The notes below the pieces were generated by a model that worked only from the letters and a program-made list of their open reading frames with translations, had not been told where the DNA came from and made no database searches. DNA of 32,611 bases from a virus: the IMG/VR virus record IMGVR_UViG_3300033388_005746, positions 1 through 32,611 of that record; one strand, written 5' to 3'. Each line of letters opens with the position of its first letter. The stretch's first letter is position 1. Positions 7,821 through 32,611 of the stretch are shown one piece after another. Position numbers and translations under genes: made by a program.

Positions 7821-8771
7821 ATGGATAAAAAAGAAGTTGAGTTTGTTGAATGTCCTTATTGTGAAAAAACATATAAAACAAAAACAAGACTAAATATACA
7901 TTTACAGAGAATTCATAGTTTTACAAAAGAAGATGCTAAAAAATATTGTAAAGGTTTAAATGTTATCACATCTTCAGAAATAGCGTCAAGCAAAAACATT
8001 AAAAAAACATGTTTAAGTCGTTACGGTACAACGAACGGTGGTTGTTCTAAAGAAGCTTTAGAAAAGATAAAACAAACAAATCTAGAACGTTATGGTGTTG
8101 CGTATACTTGGCAAGATAATAACACAAAAAAGAAAATAAAACAAACAAATCTAGAACGTTATGGGACAGAAAATCCTATGCAAAATGACGAGATTTTTAA
8201 AAAACGAGAAGACACGTGTAAAGAAAAGTATGGATTTAAACAACATTTAAAATCCCCAATAATCCAACAAAAAATTTCTGATACTTGTATGGACAAATAT
8301 GGTGTTACTAGATATTGCGCTACAGATGAAGGTAAACAAAAACAAAAGGAAACTAATTTCAAAAAATATGGAATGTGGTATACTCAAACTGATGAACACG
8401 ACAAATATAATTATCAATGGAAAGATTATATATTTCCTTCCGGTAAGTCAATTAGATGTCAAGGATATGAGCCATTAGCTTTGAATGTTCTTTTAAATTC
8501 TTATGTAGAAAGGGAAATAATTACTTCTACTATTGAAATCAGAGAAAAGGTTGGAGATTTTTGGTATGATTTTGATAATAAAAAATCCCGATATTATCCC
8601 GATATTTTTATACCTAAAGAGAATTTAATAATAGAGGTTAAAAGTATCTATACATACTCGCAACAGAAAAAGAAAAATATTAAGAAAAAGGAAAGCTGTA
8701 TAAATAAGGGGTTCAAATTTGAATTTTGGGTATTTAATCCTAAAGATGAGTTAGTTGATATTATATTTTGA
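7821..8771 (+). CDS. Free-standing homing-type endonuclease (zinc finger, YG repeats, PD-(D/E)XK)
   Basis: A 316-aa mobile nuclease. It starts with a C2H2 zinc finger (C11, C14, H27, H32). Six consecutive 23-residue units follow, each centred on a (R/K)YG motif, with Tyr at 68, 91, 114, 137, 160 and 183. This repeat type is known from phage homing endonucleases and probably contacts DNA. The C-terminus looks like a PD-(D/E)XK fold related to Vsr-like homing nucleases: GYE at 215-217, PD at 260-261, and E272-V-K274. It sits between capsid and neck genes, which is typical for a homing gene invading a late region. It would cut genomes that lack it at the matching site. Its own ribosome-binding site (AGAGGAAGAG) and distinct A-rich composition fit an inserted cassette. 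Confidence 0.75.
   Translation: MDKKEVEFVECPYCEKTYKTKTRLNIHLQRIHSFTKEDAKKYCKGLNVITSSEIASSKNIKKTCLSRYGTTNGGCSKEALEKIKQTNLERYGVAYTWQDNNTKKKIKQTNLERYGTENPMQNDEIFKKREDTCKEKYGFKQHLKSPIIQQKISDTCMDKYGVTRYCATDEGKQKQKETNFKKYGMWYTQTDEHDKYNYQWKDYIFPSGKSIRCQGYEPLALNVLLNSYVEREIITSTIEIREKVGDFWYDFDNKKSRYYPDIFIPKENLIIEVKSIYTYSQQKKKNIKKKESCINKGFKFEFWVFNPKDELVDIIF
8067..8164 (+). repeat. 29-bp direct repeat inside the nuclease gene
   Basis: Identical 29-base copies at 8067-8095 and 8136-8164, 69 bases apart, encode the KQTNLERYG part of two adjacent 23-residue units. The DNA identity points to recent unit duplication. Confidence 0.9.
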
Positions 8772-13871: not shown

Positions 13872-14444
13872 ATGGCTTTTCCAAAATCAATGGCTGAATA
13901 TTACTCCACTCTAAGAACAAAAGGCGTTAAGCTAACTCAGCAGTATCAAATGAATATCATTAATACTGGTATTACAGAAGTGGACAATATGCTTGCTGAA
14001 CTTACTATGTGGGCTAAAAGTGCTACTGCTCCCGGTAGAACTCAAAATTTTGCACCTATTCATTATTTAGCATATGAATTTAGTGTGCCGTCTAATTTCG
14101 ATATGACTAAAACGATTACACTTGATATCAATTGTGATGCTGCGTTAACTATTCGTGATGCTCTTCTTTTTTGGGCAGGTGTTATTAGTGATGCTGATAT
14201 TGAAGGTGGTTCTGTAGGTGGTGGTATTAAGAATATCTCACCAGCAGTTGGCAAACTTTATTTATTTAATGATCTAATGGATACTGTAACACATGAATAT
14301 GAGTTAGTGGGTCTTTATCCTACAAATATTGGTGATATTGCTTTCTCTAATGTAGAATCTAATATCGCTACATTTACCGCTGAATTTAGATATCAATACT
14401 GGAAGACTGTTAAGACTGTTAATACTAATTTAGATATCTCATAA
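13872..14444 (+). CDS. 19: Tail tube protein (T4 gp19-like)
   Basis: A 190-aa protein of the length and pattern of T4-type tail-tube proteins (T4 gp19 is 163 aa). It shows APGRTQNF and HYLAYEFSVPSNFDM at about 55-79, TIRDALLFWAGVI at about 94-106, KLYLFNDLMDTVTHEYELVGLYPTNIG, and the end TAEFRYQYWKT. YELVGLYP plus a terminal YQYW strand is the signature of this family. Stacked hexamers form the inner tube through which DNA passes. A strong AAGGAG site and its own late promoter fit high expression. No sheath gene (gp18) is visible, so it must lie outside the window. Confidence 0.8.
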   Translation: MAFPKSMAEYYSTLRTKGVKLTQQYQMNIINTGITEVDNMLAELTMWAKSATAPGRTQNFAPIHYLAYEFSVPSNFDMTKTITLDINCDAALTIRDALLFWAGVISDADIEGGSVGGGIKNISPAVGKLYLFNDLMDTVTHEYELVGLYPTNIGDIAFSNVESNIATFTAEFRYQYWKTVKTVNTNLDIS

Positions 14445-14460
14445 TTGAGGAGATTATCGA

Positions 14461-15549
14461 ATGGGCATTTTAAGTAATATAGTTGACGGAACTGGTGGAC
14501 TTATCAACAATAAGATTAATAATCTTATTGATGGTACGTCAGATGGTCTTGAAGGCTGGGCTCGTGAATATATGCAGGGTGATATTGAAAGTCGTACTAT
14601 TGATGTTGCGAGGGATGCTCTTAATAATAAGTTAGAAAGTCTTAAAAATGATGCATTAGGTGCAGTTAATCAAGCTGTTAGTACTGGTATACAGACAGCT
14701 AAAGCAGCAGCACTTGATTCTGTTTTTGGTAGTAAATCTGGATCTGAATTCCCTGAAACTACAGATTATACTAGTTATATAGATGAACGAAAAACATCTA
14801 AAGGTGATAAAAAGGACGGTGCATATAATGGTCCAAATTTAGATGAATTTTATGGTGCGTTTAGTAGTATTCAACGTGGTGATAGAAGATTTTCTATGTT
14901 GCAAAAATATATGTTTCAGGTTGATATTATAATTACTACGACTTCAACTGATTCTAAATTTGAACAAATTTATACTAAAAGAGTTGACAAAGATGGTTCG
15001 AGAGCTTTTAAACTTCTAGTATCTTCTATAGAAATACCTAACATAATTGTAGATAAACCAGAAGACCTTTTAACAGAATTTGGTCATGTATCTTTACCGT
15101 CCGGCACATTAATCCCTGATAGTAATGAATTTTCCTTAAATATATTAAATACAGAAGATTCTTTAATGGAAGGATTTTTTGTAGAATGGTTAGGTGAAGT
15201 GTGTGCAGATAGATACATATATGAAGATTTTCCATTCCATAAAGCTTCAATTAAGATTACTTTTTATCAAAGCAATAGTCTTTATAAGGCATTTGCATAT
15301 GAATTTAAAGATTGTTTCCCTGTACAGGTGGAAACACAAAATCCTTCTCATAAATTTGATTTTAATGAAACAAGAGAAGTAAAAATGGCTTTTGATTATA
15401 TGTTGTTACATAAATACACTGAAACAGCTTCAATTGCTGAAGCGGGTAATTTACTTGTACCAAATGCATTCCTTAATCAGTTTATTAATCCTATTGATGG
15501 ATCAATAGCTAATACTGTAAAAAGTGGTGCGAAAAATTTCCTTATCTAA
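14461..15549 (+). CDS. Tube-like/baseplate-associated structural protein
   Basis: A 362-aa protein. The first ~90 residues are helical and Ala/Asn/Asp-rich, with a glycine-rich start (MGILSNIVDGTGG). A beta-rich part with tail-tube-like features follows: MLQKYMFQVDIIITT, AFKLLVSSIEIPN, then YEFKDCFPVQVETQNPSH and REVKMAFDYML, which resemble the strands of gp19-fold proteins. A longer tube-fold protein next to gp19 suggests a tube initiator, cap or decorated tube protein. Two other genes (18177, 19365) fit gp48/gp54 better. It lies 16 bases after the tube gene, with GAGGAG as its ribosome-binding site. Confidence 0.55.
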   Translation: MGILSNIVDGTGGLINNKINNLIDGTSDGLEGWAREYMQGDIESRTIDVARDALNNKLESLKNDALGAVNQAVSTGIQTAKAAALDSVFGSKSGSEFPETTDYTSYIDERKTSKGDKKDGAYNGPNLDEFYGAFSSIQRGDRRFSMLQKYMFQVDIIITTTSTDSKFEQIYTKRVDKDGSRAFKLLVSSIEIPNIIVDKPEDLLTEFGHVSLPSGTLIPDSNEFSLNILNTEDSLMEGFFVEWLGEVCADRYIYEDFPFHKASIKITFYQSNSLYKAFAYEFKDCFPVQVETQNPSHKFDFNETREVKMAFDYMLLHKYTETASIAEAGNLLVPNAFLNQFINPIDGSIANTVKSGAKNFLI

Positions 15550-29184: not shown

Positions 29185-30051
29185 ATGGCATTTACAGAGA
29201 ATTTACAAACATTAACCCCTATACTTTCTACGGATCATTTAATTGTATCTCGTGGAGATATTGTTGACAATTTTAATGAATTAAATACCTATGGTACTAA
29301 TAGTAAAGCAGGTTTAATGCAAATTGCAACATCTGGTGAAATGAATACTGCTGACGGTTTTGGTGCAATTACAGCAGCTACTTTAAAGGATAGTGAATTT
29401 CAAAATCCTTTTAGATATAATAATAGTTTTGTTAGTGTTGTTAGTTTAAGTGGTGATAATACTGCTCTTGCATCTGTTGAATATGTAGATAGTATTGTAG
29501 CAGGAGCAGCCGTTGATTTACCTGCTTATAAAGCAGGTGTTTTAGACCCTGCTTATCTTAAAAGAAATCAATCTGACGCACCTGTATCTGATAATGATTT
29601 TGATTTAGGTGCTGATGGATATCGTTGGACGACTATATGGGCATACACTTTTGACGGTACAGCAACACAAACTGAATATGCTGACGTAGCTGAAAAATAC
29701 ACATGTAAAGATGACGTAGAAACTGGCGATGTTATTGTTATTTCTATTGAGGGAGATTGTGATACTGAAATGTCAACTACTGAGTGTGATCATAGAGTAA
29801 TTGGTGTAATTTCTGAAAAACCTGGTTATTTAATGAATAAAAATTTAGATGGACCATCTGTTGGTCTTTTAGGTACACTACCTGTTAAAGTTACTGGAAC
29901 ATGTCTTAAGGGTGATCTATTAGTTACATCTGATATAAAGGGTGTTGCTCGTGCTGCAAAATCACCTGATGAGTATGCATTTAAACTAGGTTATGCTATT
30001 GAAGGTAAAGATACTAAAGAAATCGCCCTTGTAAAATCCATTATCAAATAG
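29185..30051 (+). CDS. Tail fibre/baseplate fibre protein with G2-peptidase-like C-terminal domain
   Basis: A 288-aa protein. The N-terminal part (LSTDHLIVSRGDIVDNFNEL) resembles fibre attachment regions. Next comes the common fibre block NQSDAPVSDNDFDLGADGYRWTTIWAYTF (about 130-158). TEYADVAEKYTCKDDVETGDVI starts the final domain (about 165-288), with VIGVISEKPGYLMN and LPVKVTGTCLKGDLLVTS. This end resembles the G2-peptidase-type/trimer-finishing domains of phage fibres. Short fibres of this kind bind receptors or close fibres at the baseplate. It is the last structural gene before the terminator. AATGGAG lies about 16 bases before the ATG. Confidence 0.7.
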   Translation: MAFTENLQTLTPILSTDHLIVSRGDIVDNFNELNTYGTNSKAGLMQIATSGEMNTADGFGAITAATLKDSEFQNPFRYNNSFVSVVSLSGDNTALASVEYVDSIVAGAAVDLPAYKAGVLDPAYLKRNQSDAPVSDNDFDLGADGYRWTTIWAYTFDGTATQTEYADVAEKYTCKDDVETGDVIVISIEGDCDTEMSTTECDHRVIGVISEKPGYLMNKNLDGPSVGLLGTLPVKVTGTCLKGDLLVTSDIKGVARAAKSPDEYAFKLGYAIEGKDTKEIALVKSIIK

Positions 30052-30079
30052 TTGAAATAATTCCCGCCTTGGTTATAAT
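30052..30079 (+). promoter_or_regulatory. Sigma70-type promoter TTGAAA-N16-TATAAT before radical SAM operon
   Basis: TTGAAA (30052-30057) and a perfect TATAAT (30074-30079), 16 bases apart. Expected start is about 30086. The -10 lies in the loop of the terminator below, so transcripts from it would lack the terminator's 5' arm. Confidence 0.6.
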
Positions 30080-30100
30080 ATATAATAAAGGCGGTTTTTT
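30064..30100 (+). terminator. Terminator of the tail module, overlapping the next gene's ribosome-binding site
   Basis: A 7-bp G+C-rich stem (CCGCCTT at 30064-30070, AAGGCGG at 30088-30094), a 17-base loop and six T's directly before the ATG at 30101. The 3' arm AAGGCGG is also the ribosome-binding site of the following gene, six bases from its start. Confidence 0.75.
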
Positions 30101-31159
30101 ATGTCCCTAGAAGTACAATTAGTTCTAACTGAAAAATGTAATTTTAAGTGTGATTATTGTTACCTATCTCTTAAAAAGACTAGGATGACAGTAGATAAAT
30201 TTAAAGATTTTTATTATAATCAACTTAAAGAATGTATGGAACTACACAGATGTGATACATACCACATTGTGTTCTTTGGTGGTGAACCATTACTAGAAAT
30301 GAAACTTATTGATGAAATCCATGATATCGTTTATTTGAAGGATTATTGTAAAGGAATTTGTGATGGATTTAAGGTAGTAACGAACGGTTCTTTATTGACT
30401 GAAGAAATTTGTAAGGAGTTCATCACTAAAGATATTAAAATAAGTGTTTCGTATGATGGTCTATGGCAAGATGAAAATCGTGAAGGACAACTATCAGAAA
30501 ATAGTATATTACGTAACCCTATTTTACTTCAAAAATATGTAGATAAAGTCCATTGCATGGTAAAGCCTGAAAACATCTCATCAATTGTTGAGAATTTCAA
30601 CTATTTCATAGATCTAAATCTAACTCCTAATTTTACGCTAGTTGAAGATAATATATGGTCAGATAAGGATGTTGAAATATTTGAAAAACAAATAGAATTA
30701 TTAGTTAAAAGAAATATTGAAACGGTTAAAGAAGGAAAAAATATTATTGCAGGATTTTTTACTCAATGGATAACAAAAATCATTAAGCCAACTGTTAGCA
30801 CTTGTTCTATTGGTAAATCAGTATCATTATTCCCTGACGGTAAAATATATCCATGTGCTAGATATGGTAATCAAGATCAACATATATTATATGACAAAGA
30901 TTTTAAGAGGTTTAATATTCATGAAGTCGGGAGATTAGGTAATAAAGCTAATTGGGGTTGTGGAAATTGTGAAATAATAGCATATTGTAATACTGGTTGT
31001 CCAGCAGTTCAAGAAGAATTTGGAGGTCTAATACCACAATTATGTGATTTTTATAAAATACTCTTTAAAAATACGAATGAATTTATTAAAGTAGTTGGAG
31101 GAACGTATTTAATACGTTTACATATTGAAAATATAATGAAAGATATAGGAGTTACTTAA
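30101..31159 (+). CDS. Radical SAM enzyme with SPASM-type C-terminal iron-sulfur domain
   Basis: A 352-aa radical SAM protein. C13, C17 and C20 (CNFKCDYC) hold the SAM-binding [4Fe-4S] cluster, FFGGEPLLE at 58-66 is the usual GGEP motif, and VVTNGSLL follows at 92-99. The C-terminal region has C235, C252 (FPDGKIYPCARYG), C287, C290, C296, C300 and C315, which is a SPASM arrangement for auxiliary clusters. SPASM enzymes typically modify peptides or proteins (sulfatase maturases, peptide thioether or epimerisation enzymes). The substrate is not visible. It opens a coupled operon with the next genes; its stop overlaps the following ATG (TAATG). It has a private promoter and a ribosome-binding site in the terminator arm. 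Confidence 0.9.
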   Translation: MSLEVQLVLTEKCNFKCDYCYLSLKKTRMTVDKFKDFYYNQLKECMELHRCDTYHIVFFGGEPLLEMKLIDEIHDIVYLKDYCKGICDGFKVVTNGSLLTEEICKEFITKDIKISVSYDGLWQDENREGQLSENSILRNPILLQKYVDKVHCMVKPENISSIVENFNYFIDLNLTPNFTLVEDNIWSDKDVEIFEKQIELLVKRNIETVKEGKNIIAGFFTQWITKIIKPTVSTCSIGKSVSLFPDGKIYPCARYGNQDQHILYDKDFKRFNIHEVGRLGNKANWGCGNCEIIAYCNTGCPAVQEEFGGLIPQLCDFYKILFKNTNEFIKVVGGTYLIRLHIENIMKDIGVT

Positions 31160-31386
31160 TGAATATAGTACAGAAAATAAATAGAAGTTATAATGCATCA
31201 AGAGCATTATTATCGTTATATCAAAATGTAGCATTTGATAAAGATGCTGAACAAATTCTTAACTTAGCTAAACTGTATGCAGATAAGGCTAAAGGATTTA
31301 AACAAGATTTAGATGAAGTTGAACCGGATTTCAATGATGAAGTTATGGATTTAGTAGATGAAATCAAAACTGAGGAAAAAGAATAA
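31159..31386 (+). CDS. Small acidic helical protein in radical SAM operon
   Basis: A 75-aa protein. The N-terminal half is amphipathic helix (RSYNASRALLSLYQNVAF, then ILNLAKLYADKAKGF) and the C-terminal third is strongly acidic (EVEPDFNDEVMDLVDEIKTEEKE). It has no Cys, no leader-like GG motif and no signal peptide. It overlaps both neighbours by one base (TAATG at each end), so it is translated in step with them and may be a partner, carrier or substrate of the enzymes. No family recognised. Confidence 0.65.
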   Translation: MNIVQKINRSYNASRALLSLYQNVAFDKDAEQILNLAKLYADKAKGFKQDLDEVEPDFNDEVMDLVDEIKTEEKE

Positions 31387-32378
31387 TGGCTAAATTTCTT
31401 ATATTAGGTGGTGCAGGATTTATTGGAAGTAATTTCGCAAAATATGTACTTGATAAAGGACATGAAGTTATTATCGTTGATAATTTTTCTACTGGAAATG
31501 AAGAAAATATTCAGGATTTTATGGAGAATGATAAAGTAGATATTTATCGGTTCAGATTAAAGAGATGTACTGAAGGGTATGATTGTTATTATTTAAAAAA
31601 GGGAAGAGGAAGAGGTAAAAGACAGATATATGAATTAATGGAAATTTCTGATTATATTATTCATCTTGCAGCATCTGTTGGTGTATCTTATGTCGAAGAT
31701 AATGCACAATCTACTATCTTGAATAATATGGAGATGGAACAAATGGTTTTTGGTTTTAATGAAAAATATCAAAAACCAATCTTCTTTGCTAGTACTTCTG
31801 AAGTATACGGTGAAGGTTTATCTACACAATCATCATTCAAAGAAACTGATTCTCTAATGATTAAACCACCTGTTGAAACAAGGTGGGGTTATGCGTGTTC
31901 CAAATTAATGGGAGAATTTTTACTACATTCTTATACTCAACCATTTGTTATTGGTCGATTTTTTAATGTGACTAGTAGGAATCAGGTTAGTAATTATGGA
32001 ATGGTTTTACCTTCTTTTGTCGAACAAGCACTTGAAAAGAAACCTCTAACGATTTATAATAGAGGTCTAGCAACACGTTGTTATTGTCATATCGATGACG
32101 CAGTAGAAGCTATGTATAAACTTATGACTACACAACGATGTTATCGACAAATCTTTAATATAGGTAATCCTGATGAAGTAAATGTACTACAATTAGCTAA
32201 TAGAGTTAATAGTCTTACAAGAAATGGAAATAATATTATTTTTGATGATGAATCTAGATGTAGTACAGATATTATGAGAAGAGTTCCATGCATTGATAAA
32301 ATAAAGGGCTATATTGATTGGAAACCTTTGAAGAATTTAGATCACATTATCGTAGATATGATTATGCATAAAGGATAA
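31386..32378 (+). CDS. NAD-dependent epimerase/dehydratase (extended SDR, nucleotide-sugar type)
   Basis: A 330-aa extended short-chain dehydrogenase. It has GGAGFIG at 8-14 for NAD binding, D32 after the second strand, HLAA at 93-96, a Ser-rich strand STSEVYG at 136-142, and the catalytic Y169-x-x-x-K173 (YACSK). GRFFNV at 190-195 and a substrate part with TRCYCHIDDAVEA follow. This architecture is that of UDP-glucose 4-epimerases, dTDP-glucose dehydratases and relatives; the exact sugar cannot be told. Residues about 55-80 are an odd basic, Cys-containing insert (RLKRCTEGYDC...GRGRGKR) where relatives usually have a short GDxxD turn. It is joined to its neighbours by TAATG and lies 4 bases before the second radical SAM gene. 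Confidence 0.85.
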   Translation: MAKFLILGGAGFIGSNFAKYVLDKGHEVIIVDNFSTGNEENIQDFMENDKVDIYRFRLKRCTEGYDCYYLKKGRGRGKRQIYELMEISDYIIHLAASVGVSYVEDNAQSTILNNMEMEQMVFGFNEKYQKPIFFASTSEVYGEGLSTQSSFKETDSLMIKPPVETRWGYACSKLMGEFLLHSYTQPFVIGRFFNVTSRNQVSNYGMVLPSFVEQALEKKPLTIYNRGLATRCYCHIDDAVEAMYKLMTTQRCYRQIFNIGNPDEVNVLQLANRVNSLTRNGNNIIFDDESRCSTDIMRRVPCIDKIKGYIDWKPLKNLDHIIVDMIMHKG

Positions 32379-32382
32379 TTAA

Positions 32383-32611
32383 ATGAATAGAAATCTTAAC
32401 ATAGAATTTAAAGTAACCAATGATTGCAATCTTCGATGTAAATATTGTTTTGAACATGGTTCATTTAATAGTAAACAAATAGAGAATTTTGAAATTGTTA
32501 GATTACTCGAACGAGTAGAACTATTAATAAAATCTGAAGAATTTAAAGAACGTTTTGATTCTTTCTCATTTACATTATGGGGTGGTGAACCATCTTTGAA
32601 TTATAGAGTAT
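32383..32611 (+). CDS. Second radical SAM enzyme, 3' partial
   Basis: Only 76 residues are in the window. C15, C19 and C22 (DCNLRCKYCFE) form the SAM-cluster motif and TLWGGEPSLNYR (64-75) the GGEP motif, both at the spacing of the first enzyme. It is not a duplicate: the sequence between them differs. AAGGATAATTAA precedes the ATG, four bases after the epimerase stop. Whether it has a SPASM end is unknown because the window stops. Confidence 0.88.
   Translation, partial: MNRNLNIEFKVTNDCNLRCKYCFEHGSFNSKQIENFEIVRLLERVELLIKSEEFKERFDSFSFTLWGGEPSLNYRV

Follow-up and report, generated by a model that had tools for sequence, protein, structure and literature searches.

Enzymes of the radical S-adenosylmethionine (rSAM) superfamily that act on Cys-rich peptides are the closest described counterparts of the system analysed here. 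PapB links Cys to Asp through thioethers in C-X3-D motifs and tolerates Cys-Xn-Asp spacings with n = 0-6 (PMC9413430). In phages, 11-12 rSAM proteins were described by Timms et al. for CP220 and CPt10, with a proposed role in host fitness; a 21-bp repeat inside one coding sequence was reported separately, and the parts of the paper covered here do not connect the repeat gene with the rSAM proteins (PMC2853527). Pelagimyophages have rSAM cassettes added in the host-recognition/tail-fibre region, with no substrate named in the passages concerned (PMC7029224), and a T4-like ocean genome carries 12 rSAM genes, with no substrate noted (PMC5332604). Here, we analysed a single virus record of 32,611 bases, IMG/VR record IMGVR_UViG_3300033388_005746 (hereafter, the window), which closes with an operon encoding an rSAM enzyme (rSAM1), a small helical protein, a short-chain dehydrogenase/reductase (SDR), and a second rSAM enzyme (rSAM2), the fourth gene, inside which the 3' end of the window falls. 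These genes probably open a phage cassette devoted to the post-translational maturation of a Cys-rich virion fibre protein. The operon comprises:

30101-31159, + strand: rSAM1, a radical SAM/SPASM maturase of 352 amino acids (aa), identified by a CxxxCxxC motif, a full SPASM motif, a family model, and a structure model
31159-31386, + strand: small three-helix protein, 75 aa, matching in position and size the 62-177 aa proteins found between rSAM1 and rSAM2 or rSAM3 (a third rSAM family) elsewhere
31386-32378, + strand: extended SDR of the nucleotide-sugar epimerase/dehydratase/decarboxylase type, 330 aa, identified by Pfam Epimerase, PHROG 540, and motifs
32383-32611, + strand: rSAM2, of which the contig end leaves the N-terminal 76 aa, identified by Pfam (29.8 bits) and the rSAM2 family model (71.3 bits)

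All four genes lie where the original prediction had placed them, and its reading of the successive junctions (TAATG, TAATG, and a 4-base gap) as translational coupling is upheld.

A conserved cassette and its Cys-rich neighbour

When the viral collection was scanned with one protein at a time (rSAM1, the small protein, or the SDR), no close relatives emerged, and alignment-based scans were needed; applied to viral contigs, these yielded loci L007-L019. The best full-length rSAM1 relatives among named phages belong to Campylobacter phages, at about 30% identity. The cassette, present in dozens of uncultured phages plus the Campylobacter phages, runs in the order fibre gene, rSAM1, small helical protein, often rSAM3, rSAM2, and then a Cys-rich fibre-like protein. 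Type A cassettes combine rSAM1, rSAM2, and usually rSAM3 with C[TV]C[DNQ]CNY heptads; type B cassettes have a 62-92 aa small protein between rSAM1 and rSAM2, and their shorter array, e.g. DCICNSDCSCNLVCSCHNDCGCNY, precedes an S74 domain. The order in the window, fibre gene, rSAM1, small protein, (SDR), rSAM2, fits type B.

With Cys density set at six or more Cys in 25 aa, the gene after rSAM2 is Cys-dense in 22 of the 23 distinct loci that have rSAM1 upstream of rSAM2, compared with 3 of the 419 other open reading frames (ORFs) of the same loci, one of the three being a second Cys protein. This local measure replaced an earlier cut-off of at least eight Cys, which proved too loose: 63 of 269 ORFs in the background passed it, probably owing to Cys in other rSAM and sugar genes. 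Approached from the substrate side, a DNA pattern for two CTC[DN]CNY heptads matched 38 viral records, 34 of which carry a full-length or nearly full-length rSAM1 (415-585 bits); among the four exceptions, two are fragments (16 and 23 kb) without a match and a third, L051, has rSAM3 beside its Cys gene. A pattern for type B arrays matched 28 records, with rSAM1-family matches in all 21 that encode the motif in an ORF (weakest, 71 bits) and in none of the seven whose DNA match lies outside a called ORF. Only one of 84,980 prokaryote species genomes contains the heptad pattern, on a lone 3-kb contig that holds rSAM3, rSAM2, a Cys protein, and a split S74. The association extends to rSAM1 proteins that are only about 25-30% identical to that of the window. 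These gene-content comparisons point with high confidence to a genetic linkage between the rSAM cassette and the Cys-rich protein.

Homologues scattered singly, the pattern named in advance as telling against the operon, are not what the comparison reveals, since environmental phages show strong conservation of the rSAM1-rSAM2 neighbourhood. The four-gene arrangement itself, singled out by the original prediction as the noteworthy unit, was rejected as a conserved unit: its order is absent from every other locus compared, and the SDR is exchangeable. The Cys-rich S74 partner escaped that prediction because the contig ends before the gene following rSAM2. In a maximum-likelihood tree, the window rSAM1 groups on a long branch with those of L059 and L065 (support 98/92), both of which are ordered rSAM1, small protein, rSAM2, Cys-rich protein; a Cys-rich gene just past the contig end is therefore predicted for the window phage. 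No Cys-dense ORF (at least six Cys in 25 aa) occurs elsewhere in the window.

The Cys-rich S74 fibre-like protein

The Cys-rich protein carries dense CxCxCNY-type repeats (tandem CTCDCNY heptads in the first relatives) directly before the S74 self-cleaving chaperone, and its N-terminal part is highly variable. At most loci, the array ends straight into SDxRLK, the start of S74 (PF13884), and the Pfam match begins at profile position 1. Endosialidase-type S74 fibres share this C-terminal chaperone and its SDxRLK start; the cassette proteins differ in that S74 stands directly after a Cys array and in that it can be split over two ORFs (L008 12514-13418, L009 14066-15041, and L065 12299-13101). 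In the split form, the Cys protein ends with SDxxLKxxIxYM/F, the first strand, and the next ORF supplies the rest of the chaperone; a split or trans-acting intramolecular chaperone of this kind would be unusual. As S74 domains are known to cleave themselves off, the mature chain would then end with the Cys array.

Asn or Asp occupies the position three residues after Cys in 63% of cases in type A arrays and 67% in type B arrays, a C-X2-N/D spacing that is suggestive only, because the repeats fix many spacings (in type A, position +1 is equally often Asn/Asp). The substrate of L082 carries CHSN/CHSD tetrads.

Several further features of these proteins were observed. Two loci (L030 4721-7285 and L037 7386-9443) contain runs of three or four Cys-array fibre genes whose C-terminal arrays are nearly identical and whose N-termini differ, which looks like a route to vary fibres. 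N-terminal CxxHxxxxxC-type repeats occur in L007 (13832-14976) and similarly in L008, L011, L051, and L083, possibly as a second modified or metal-binding region. Proteins with 80-107 Cys and no CxCxCN heptads adjoin more distant rSAM genes in L017/L018 (8680-9981), L019 (8178-9572), and L129 (8271), and are likely to represent further cassette types.

The rSAM enzymes resemble peptide maturases

Both rSAM1 and the rSAM2 fragment can be assigned by sequence to the radical SAM superfamily, exceeding the Pfam Radical_SAM (PF04055) cut-off of 29.5 bits with 33.8 and 29.8 bits, respectively. The cluster motif CxxxCxxC of rSAM1 is formed by C13, C17, and C20. Against the seven-Cys C-terminal definition of SPASM (CX9-15GX4C - CX2CX5CX3C - C), its motif is complete (C235-X11-G247-X4-C252, C287-X2-C290-X5-C296-X3-C300, and C315), and all seven Cys are invariant among 26 homologues, which bears out the SPASM end proposed for the first enzyme and places rSAM1 in the SPASM subgroup. 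Family models built without the window sequences separate the two enzymes clearly: rSAM1 scores 260.7 bits against the rSAM1 model (53 rSAM1 proteins) vs 62 against the rSAM2 model and 54 against the rSAM3 model, and the rSAM2 fragment scores highest against its own model, with 37 bits for rSAM1 and 40 for rSAM3.

The AlphaFold model of the window rSAM1 has a predicted local distance difference test (pLDDT) score of 84.7. Its best match in the PDB is CteB (5why; E-value 2.4e-13, template modelling score 0.75 by query, 18% identity), followed by anSMEcpe and then ChlB, with the sugar-active rSAM enzyme DesII only far down the list. CteB, the closest solved structure, differs from the cassette enzyme in acting on a small bacterial SCIFF peptide, unlike the fibre-like protein. 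The best NCBIfam model for the window rSAM1 and for all rSAM1, rSAM2, and rSAM3 proteins tested is PapB (NF047865), at 113.7 bits for the window rSAM1, short of the equivalog cut-off of 340; the other rSAM proteins tested also score far below it. The PapB/PapA system and the cassette have in common a radical SAM enzyme with SPASM, a Cys-rich repetitive substrate, and Asp/Asn at a fixed spacing (PMC9413430). They differ in that PapB acts on a short peptide, whereas the cassette has two or three different rSAM enzymes and a fibre-like S74 substrate, and the C-X2-N/D arrays depart from the C-X3-D/E of PapB substrates. The second-best NCBIfam model of the window rSAM1 is TIGR04115 (CXXX-repeat rSAM; 79.5 bits, below its cut-off of 350). 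Its CXXX-repeat target recalls the tetrads of L082, and the model describes no phage fibre context.

Proposed maturation of a fibre tip

In the reading that we propose, the Cys array is the target of rSAM1 and rSAM2, which most likely install thioether cross-links at its Cys residues; S74 would then form trimers and cleave itself away immediately behind the array, leaving a cross-linked, stiff fibre tip. The small protein probably assists the rSAM enzymes as a partner or adaptor, and the SDR may supply a nucleotide sugar for fibre glycosylation or another surface function, outside the core chemistry. We hold the action of the rSAM enzymes on the Cys array with moderate confidence. Thioether cross-links, suggested because C-X2-Asn/Asp is common in the arrays and the nearest families are PapB ranthipeptide and other Cys-peptide maturases, stand at about even chances.

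The same enzymes could instead give another product on the Cys array: formylglycine through anSME-like oxidation of Cys or Ser, a C-C cyclophane, epimerisation, or sugars on Cys. This is possible but the less probable outcome. The second-best structural match of the rSAM1 model, anSMEcpe, oxidises a Cys or Ser of its target protein. The weaker NCBIfam matches of the cassette rSAM enzymes include cyclophane maturases, and about one locus in two has sugar-nucleotide genes nearby. However, the substrates keep many regularly spaced Cys, which suits cross-linking better than thiol removal, and the top NCBIfam model and the top structure are both thioether maturases.

A metal-binding role, in which the array would hold metal or Fe-S clusters and the rSAM enzymes would serve an unrelated purpose, is unlikely. 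HxH motifs bind iron in the tip of the T4 long fibre, and CxCxC and the N-terminal CxxH resemble metal ligands, but the near-perfect substrate-side linkage to the cassette would be left unexplained. We know of no rSAM/SPASM enzymes that build metal sites in other proteins.

Several findings weigh against the maturation of a Cys-rich fibre by this cassette. Both the window's own substrate gene, which would lie past the contig end, and the modification itself are predictions. The C-X2-N/D spacing is partly a by-product of repeat structure and is no proof of an acceptor residue. L010 encodes rSAM1, a small protein, and rSAM2 with no Cys-rich gene beside them. In CP220, the rSAM1 and rSAM2 genes are separated from each other, and the Cys-repeat protein has no S74 ending. 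The window small protein scores 5.4 bits against its positional counterparts, a value equalled by 35 of 2000 shuffles and thus not significant. Many loci are related, and several records are near-duplicates, eight of them sharing one identical Cys protein, so that the counts of loci and records are not independent.

More broadly, receptor-facing fibre tips made of ribosomally produced, radical-SAM cross-linked Cys polymers, with the finished tip released by S74, may define a widespread class of tailed phages, a generalisation that we consider evenly balanced. If true, this would to our knowledge be the first case of radical-SAM maturation directed at virus particles; a literature search that covered few subscription journals and no bioRxiv preprints turned up no account of a phage fibre matured by rSAM enzymes. 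Such a system would also explain the several rSAM genes of many T4-like phages, ascribed to host metabolism in Campylobacter phages, and would provide natural, highly cross-linked fibres of Cys as well as new peptide-cyclising enzymes. The finding bears on host recognition, which is harder to predict than any other part of phage biology.

Sugar-nucleotide genes and the small protein

The SDR matches Pfam Epimerase at 133.7 bits and carries GxxGxxG at residues 8-14 and YxxxK (YACSK). Its nearest PDB chain by sequence is the UDP-glucuronate decarboxylase UXS1, and it is 38% identical to the SDR of L009; it reaches no named equivalog (best, 94.7 bits vs a cut-off of 294 for PRK11908). A UDP-glucose dehydrogenase or SDR lies near the cassette in 12 of the 25 loci compared. 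These sugar-nucleotide enzymes are recurrent yet exchangeable, since they differ in kind and place between loci: a UDP-glucose dehydrogenase lies just upstream of rSAM1 in eight type B loci and 2.3 kb upstream in CP220, L009 has an SDR and a PIG-L deacetylase, and L043 has an SDR downstream. The window SDR is variable sugar-nucleotide cargo, accessory to the cassette.

That the operon makes a modified nucleotide sugar on which the rSAM enzymes act is very unlikely. An SDR does stand within the operon and sugar genes recur, but half of the loci have none, the Cys-rich neighbour is missing only in L010 among 23 loci, and the best models of the rSAM enzymes are peptide maturases; in the separate structure list, the sugar-active DesII stands only far down. 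Of the sugar or protein modification suggested originally, the modification of a phage protein is supported by the Cys-rich linkage, and a sugar pathway as the core is not, the SDR being a variable passenger.

The 75-aa protein has no significant Pfam match; it is predicted to form three confident helices (pLDDT 83.8), and a Foldseek search with its model gave generic helical matches only. Its candidacy as a member of one sequence family with its counterparts was dropped after the shuffle control.

Campylobacter phages

In CP220, CPt10, and CP21 (Firehammervirus), the rSAM1 and rSAM2 families of the cassette recur, as do its CTCDCNY repeats, but their genes are dispersed and the substrate is without S74. 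We read the 21-bp repeat of Timms et al. as the CTCDCNY heptads of CP220 gp140, which lies near an rSAM2-family gene. A host-fitness role, in which the rSAM genes would serve auxiliary metabolism and aid infected cells at low oxygen, as Timms et al. proposed for Campylobacter phages with 11-12 rSAM proteins (PMC2853527), is most improbable as the purpose of the cassette, as it leaves unexplained why a single family of virion-type proteins is linked to the cassette in diverse contigs. In named phages, neither the 1227-aa baseplate-region protein nor the L057 Cys protein gave a tblastn match.

Other Cys-rich proteins of the Campylobacter phages, which have no assigned function, contain 19-27% Cys (CP220, L006 107-532 and L003 19848-20219; CP21, L014 17840-19277). 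Like the present cassette, the pelagimyophage rSAM genes are reported from the tail-fibre region.

Gene neighbourhood of the operon

Two features stand immediately upstream of rSAM1:

29185-30051, + strand: fibre-type protein, 288 aa, matching PHROG 19602 tail fibre at 68.5 bits, with a sub-threshold Peptidase_G2 match
30052-30100, + strand: intergenic control region with a promoter-like match and a hairpin between the fibre gene and rSAM1

The C-terminal region of the fibre-type protein recurs 5' of rSAM1 in related cassettes, with BLAST identities of 43% to L007 9466-9990, 36% to L008, and 40% to L011. Baseplate genes also lie upstream (baseplate wedge PHROG, 107.1 bits), and the structural cluster includes PHROG matches to portal (340.8 bits), head protease (163 bits), and major head protein (272.7 bits). 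By gene content, with gp20/gp21/gp23-like head genes and T4-type baseplate genes, the window phage is classed as T4-type. These PHROG matches agree with the earlier placement of the operon directly after fibre and baseplate genes in such a phage.

The control region contains a strong hairpin (30064-30094; z -3.3), followed by TTTTTT immediately ahead of the rSAM1 ATG, and an 11/12 sigma-70-like promoter match (30052-30079) that overlaps the hairpin region. The hairpin and the promoter-like site may form a terminator for the fibre gene, the start of a separate operon, or both; as they separate the fibre gene from rSAM1, the rSAM operon could have its own transcription unit. The 3' arm of the hairpin, AAGGCGG, could double as the rSAM1 ribosome-binding site.

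Elsewhere in the cassettes, a conserved gene of ~200 aa and unknown function (PHROG 25260) mostly coincides with or closely follows the Cys fibre gene (L083 13107-13733, L008, L009, L011, L059, L065, L096, L107, and CP220); in CP220 it comes after the baseplate hub gene. Genes whose products look by eye like IscA-type Fe-S carriers (C-terminal CGCG) stand right after rSAM1 in L081 (6194-6523) and L085 (11137-11469), which would fit an Fe-S demand of the cassette. Within the window, a homing-endonuclease-type gene (7821-8771; PHROG 3339, 72 bits) is inserted beside the major capsid gene, and two tail-tube-type proteins, both PHROG 45 (57 and 33 bits), lie side by side at 13872-15549.

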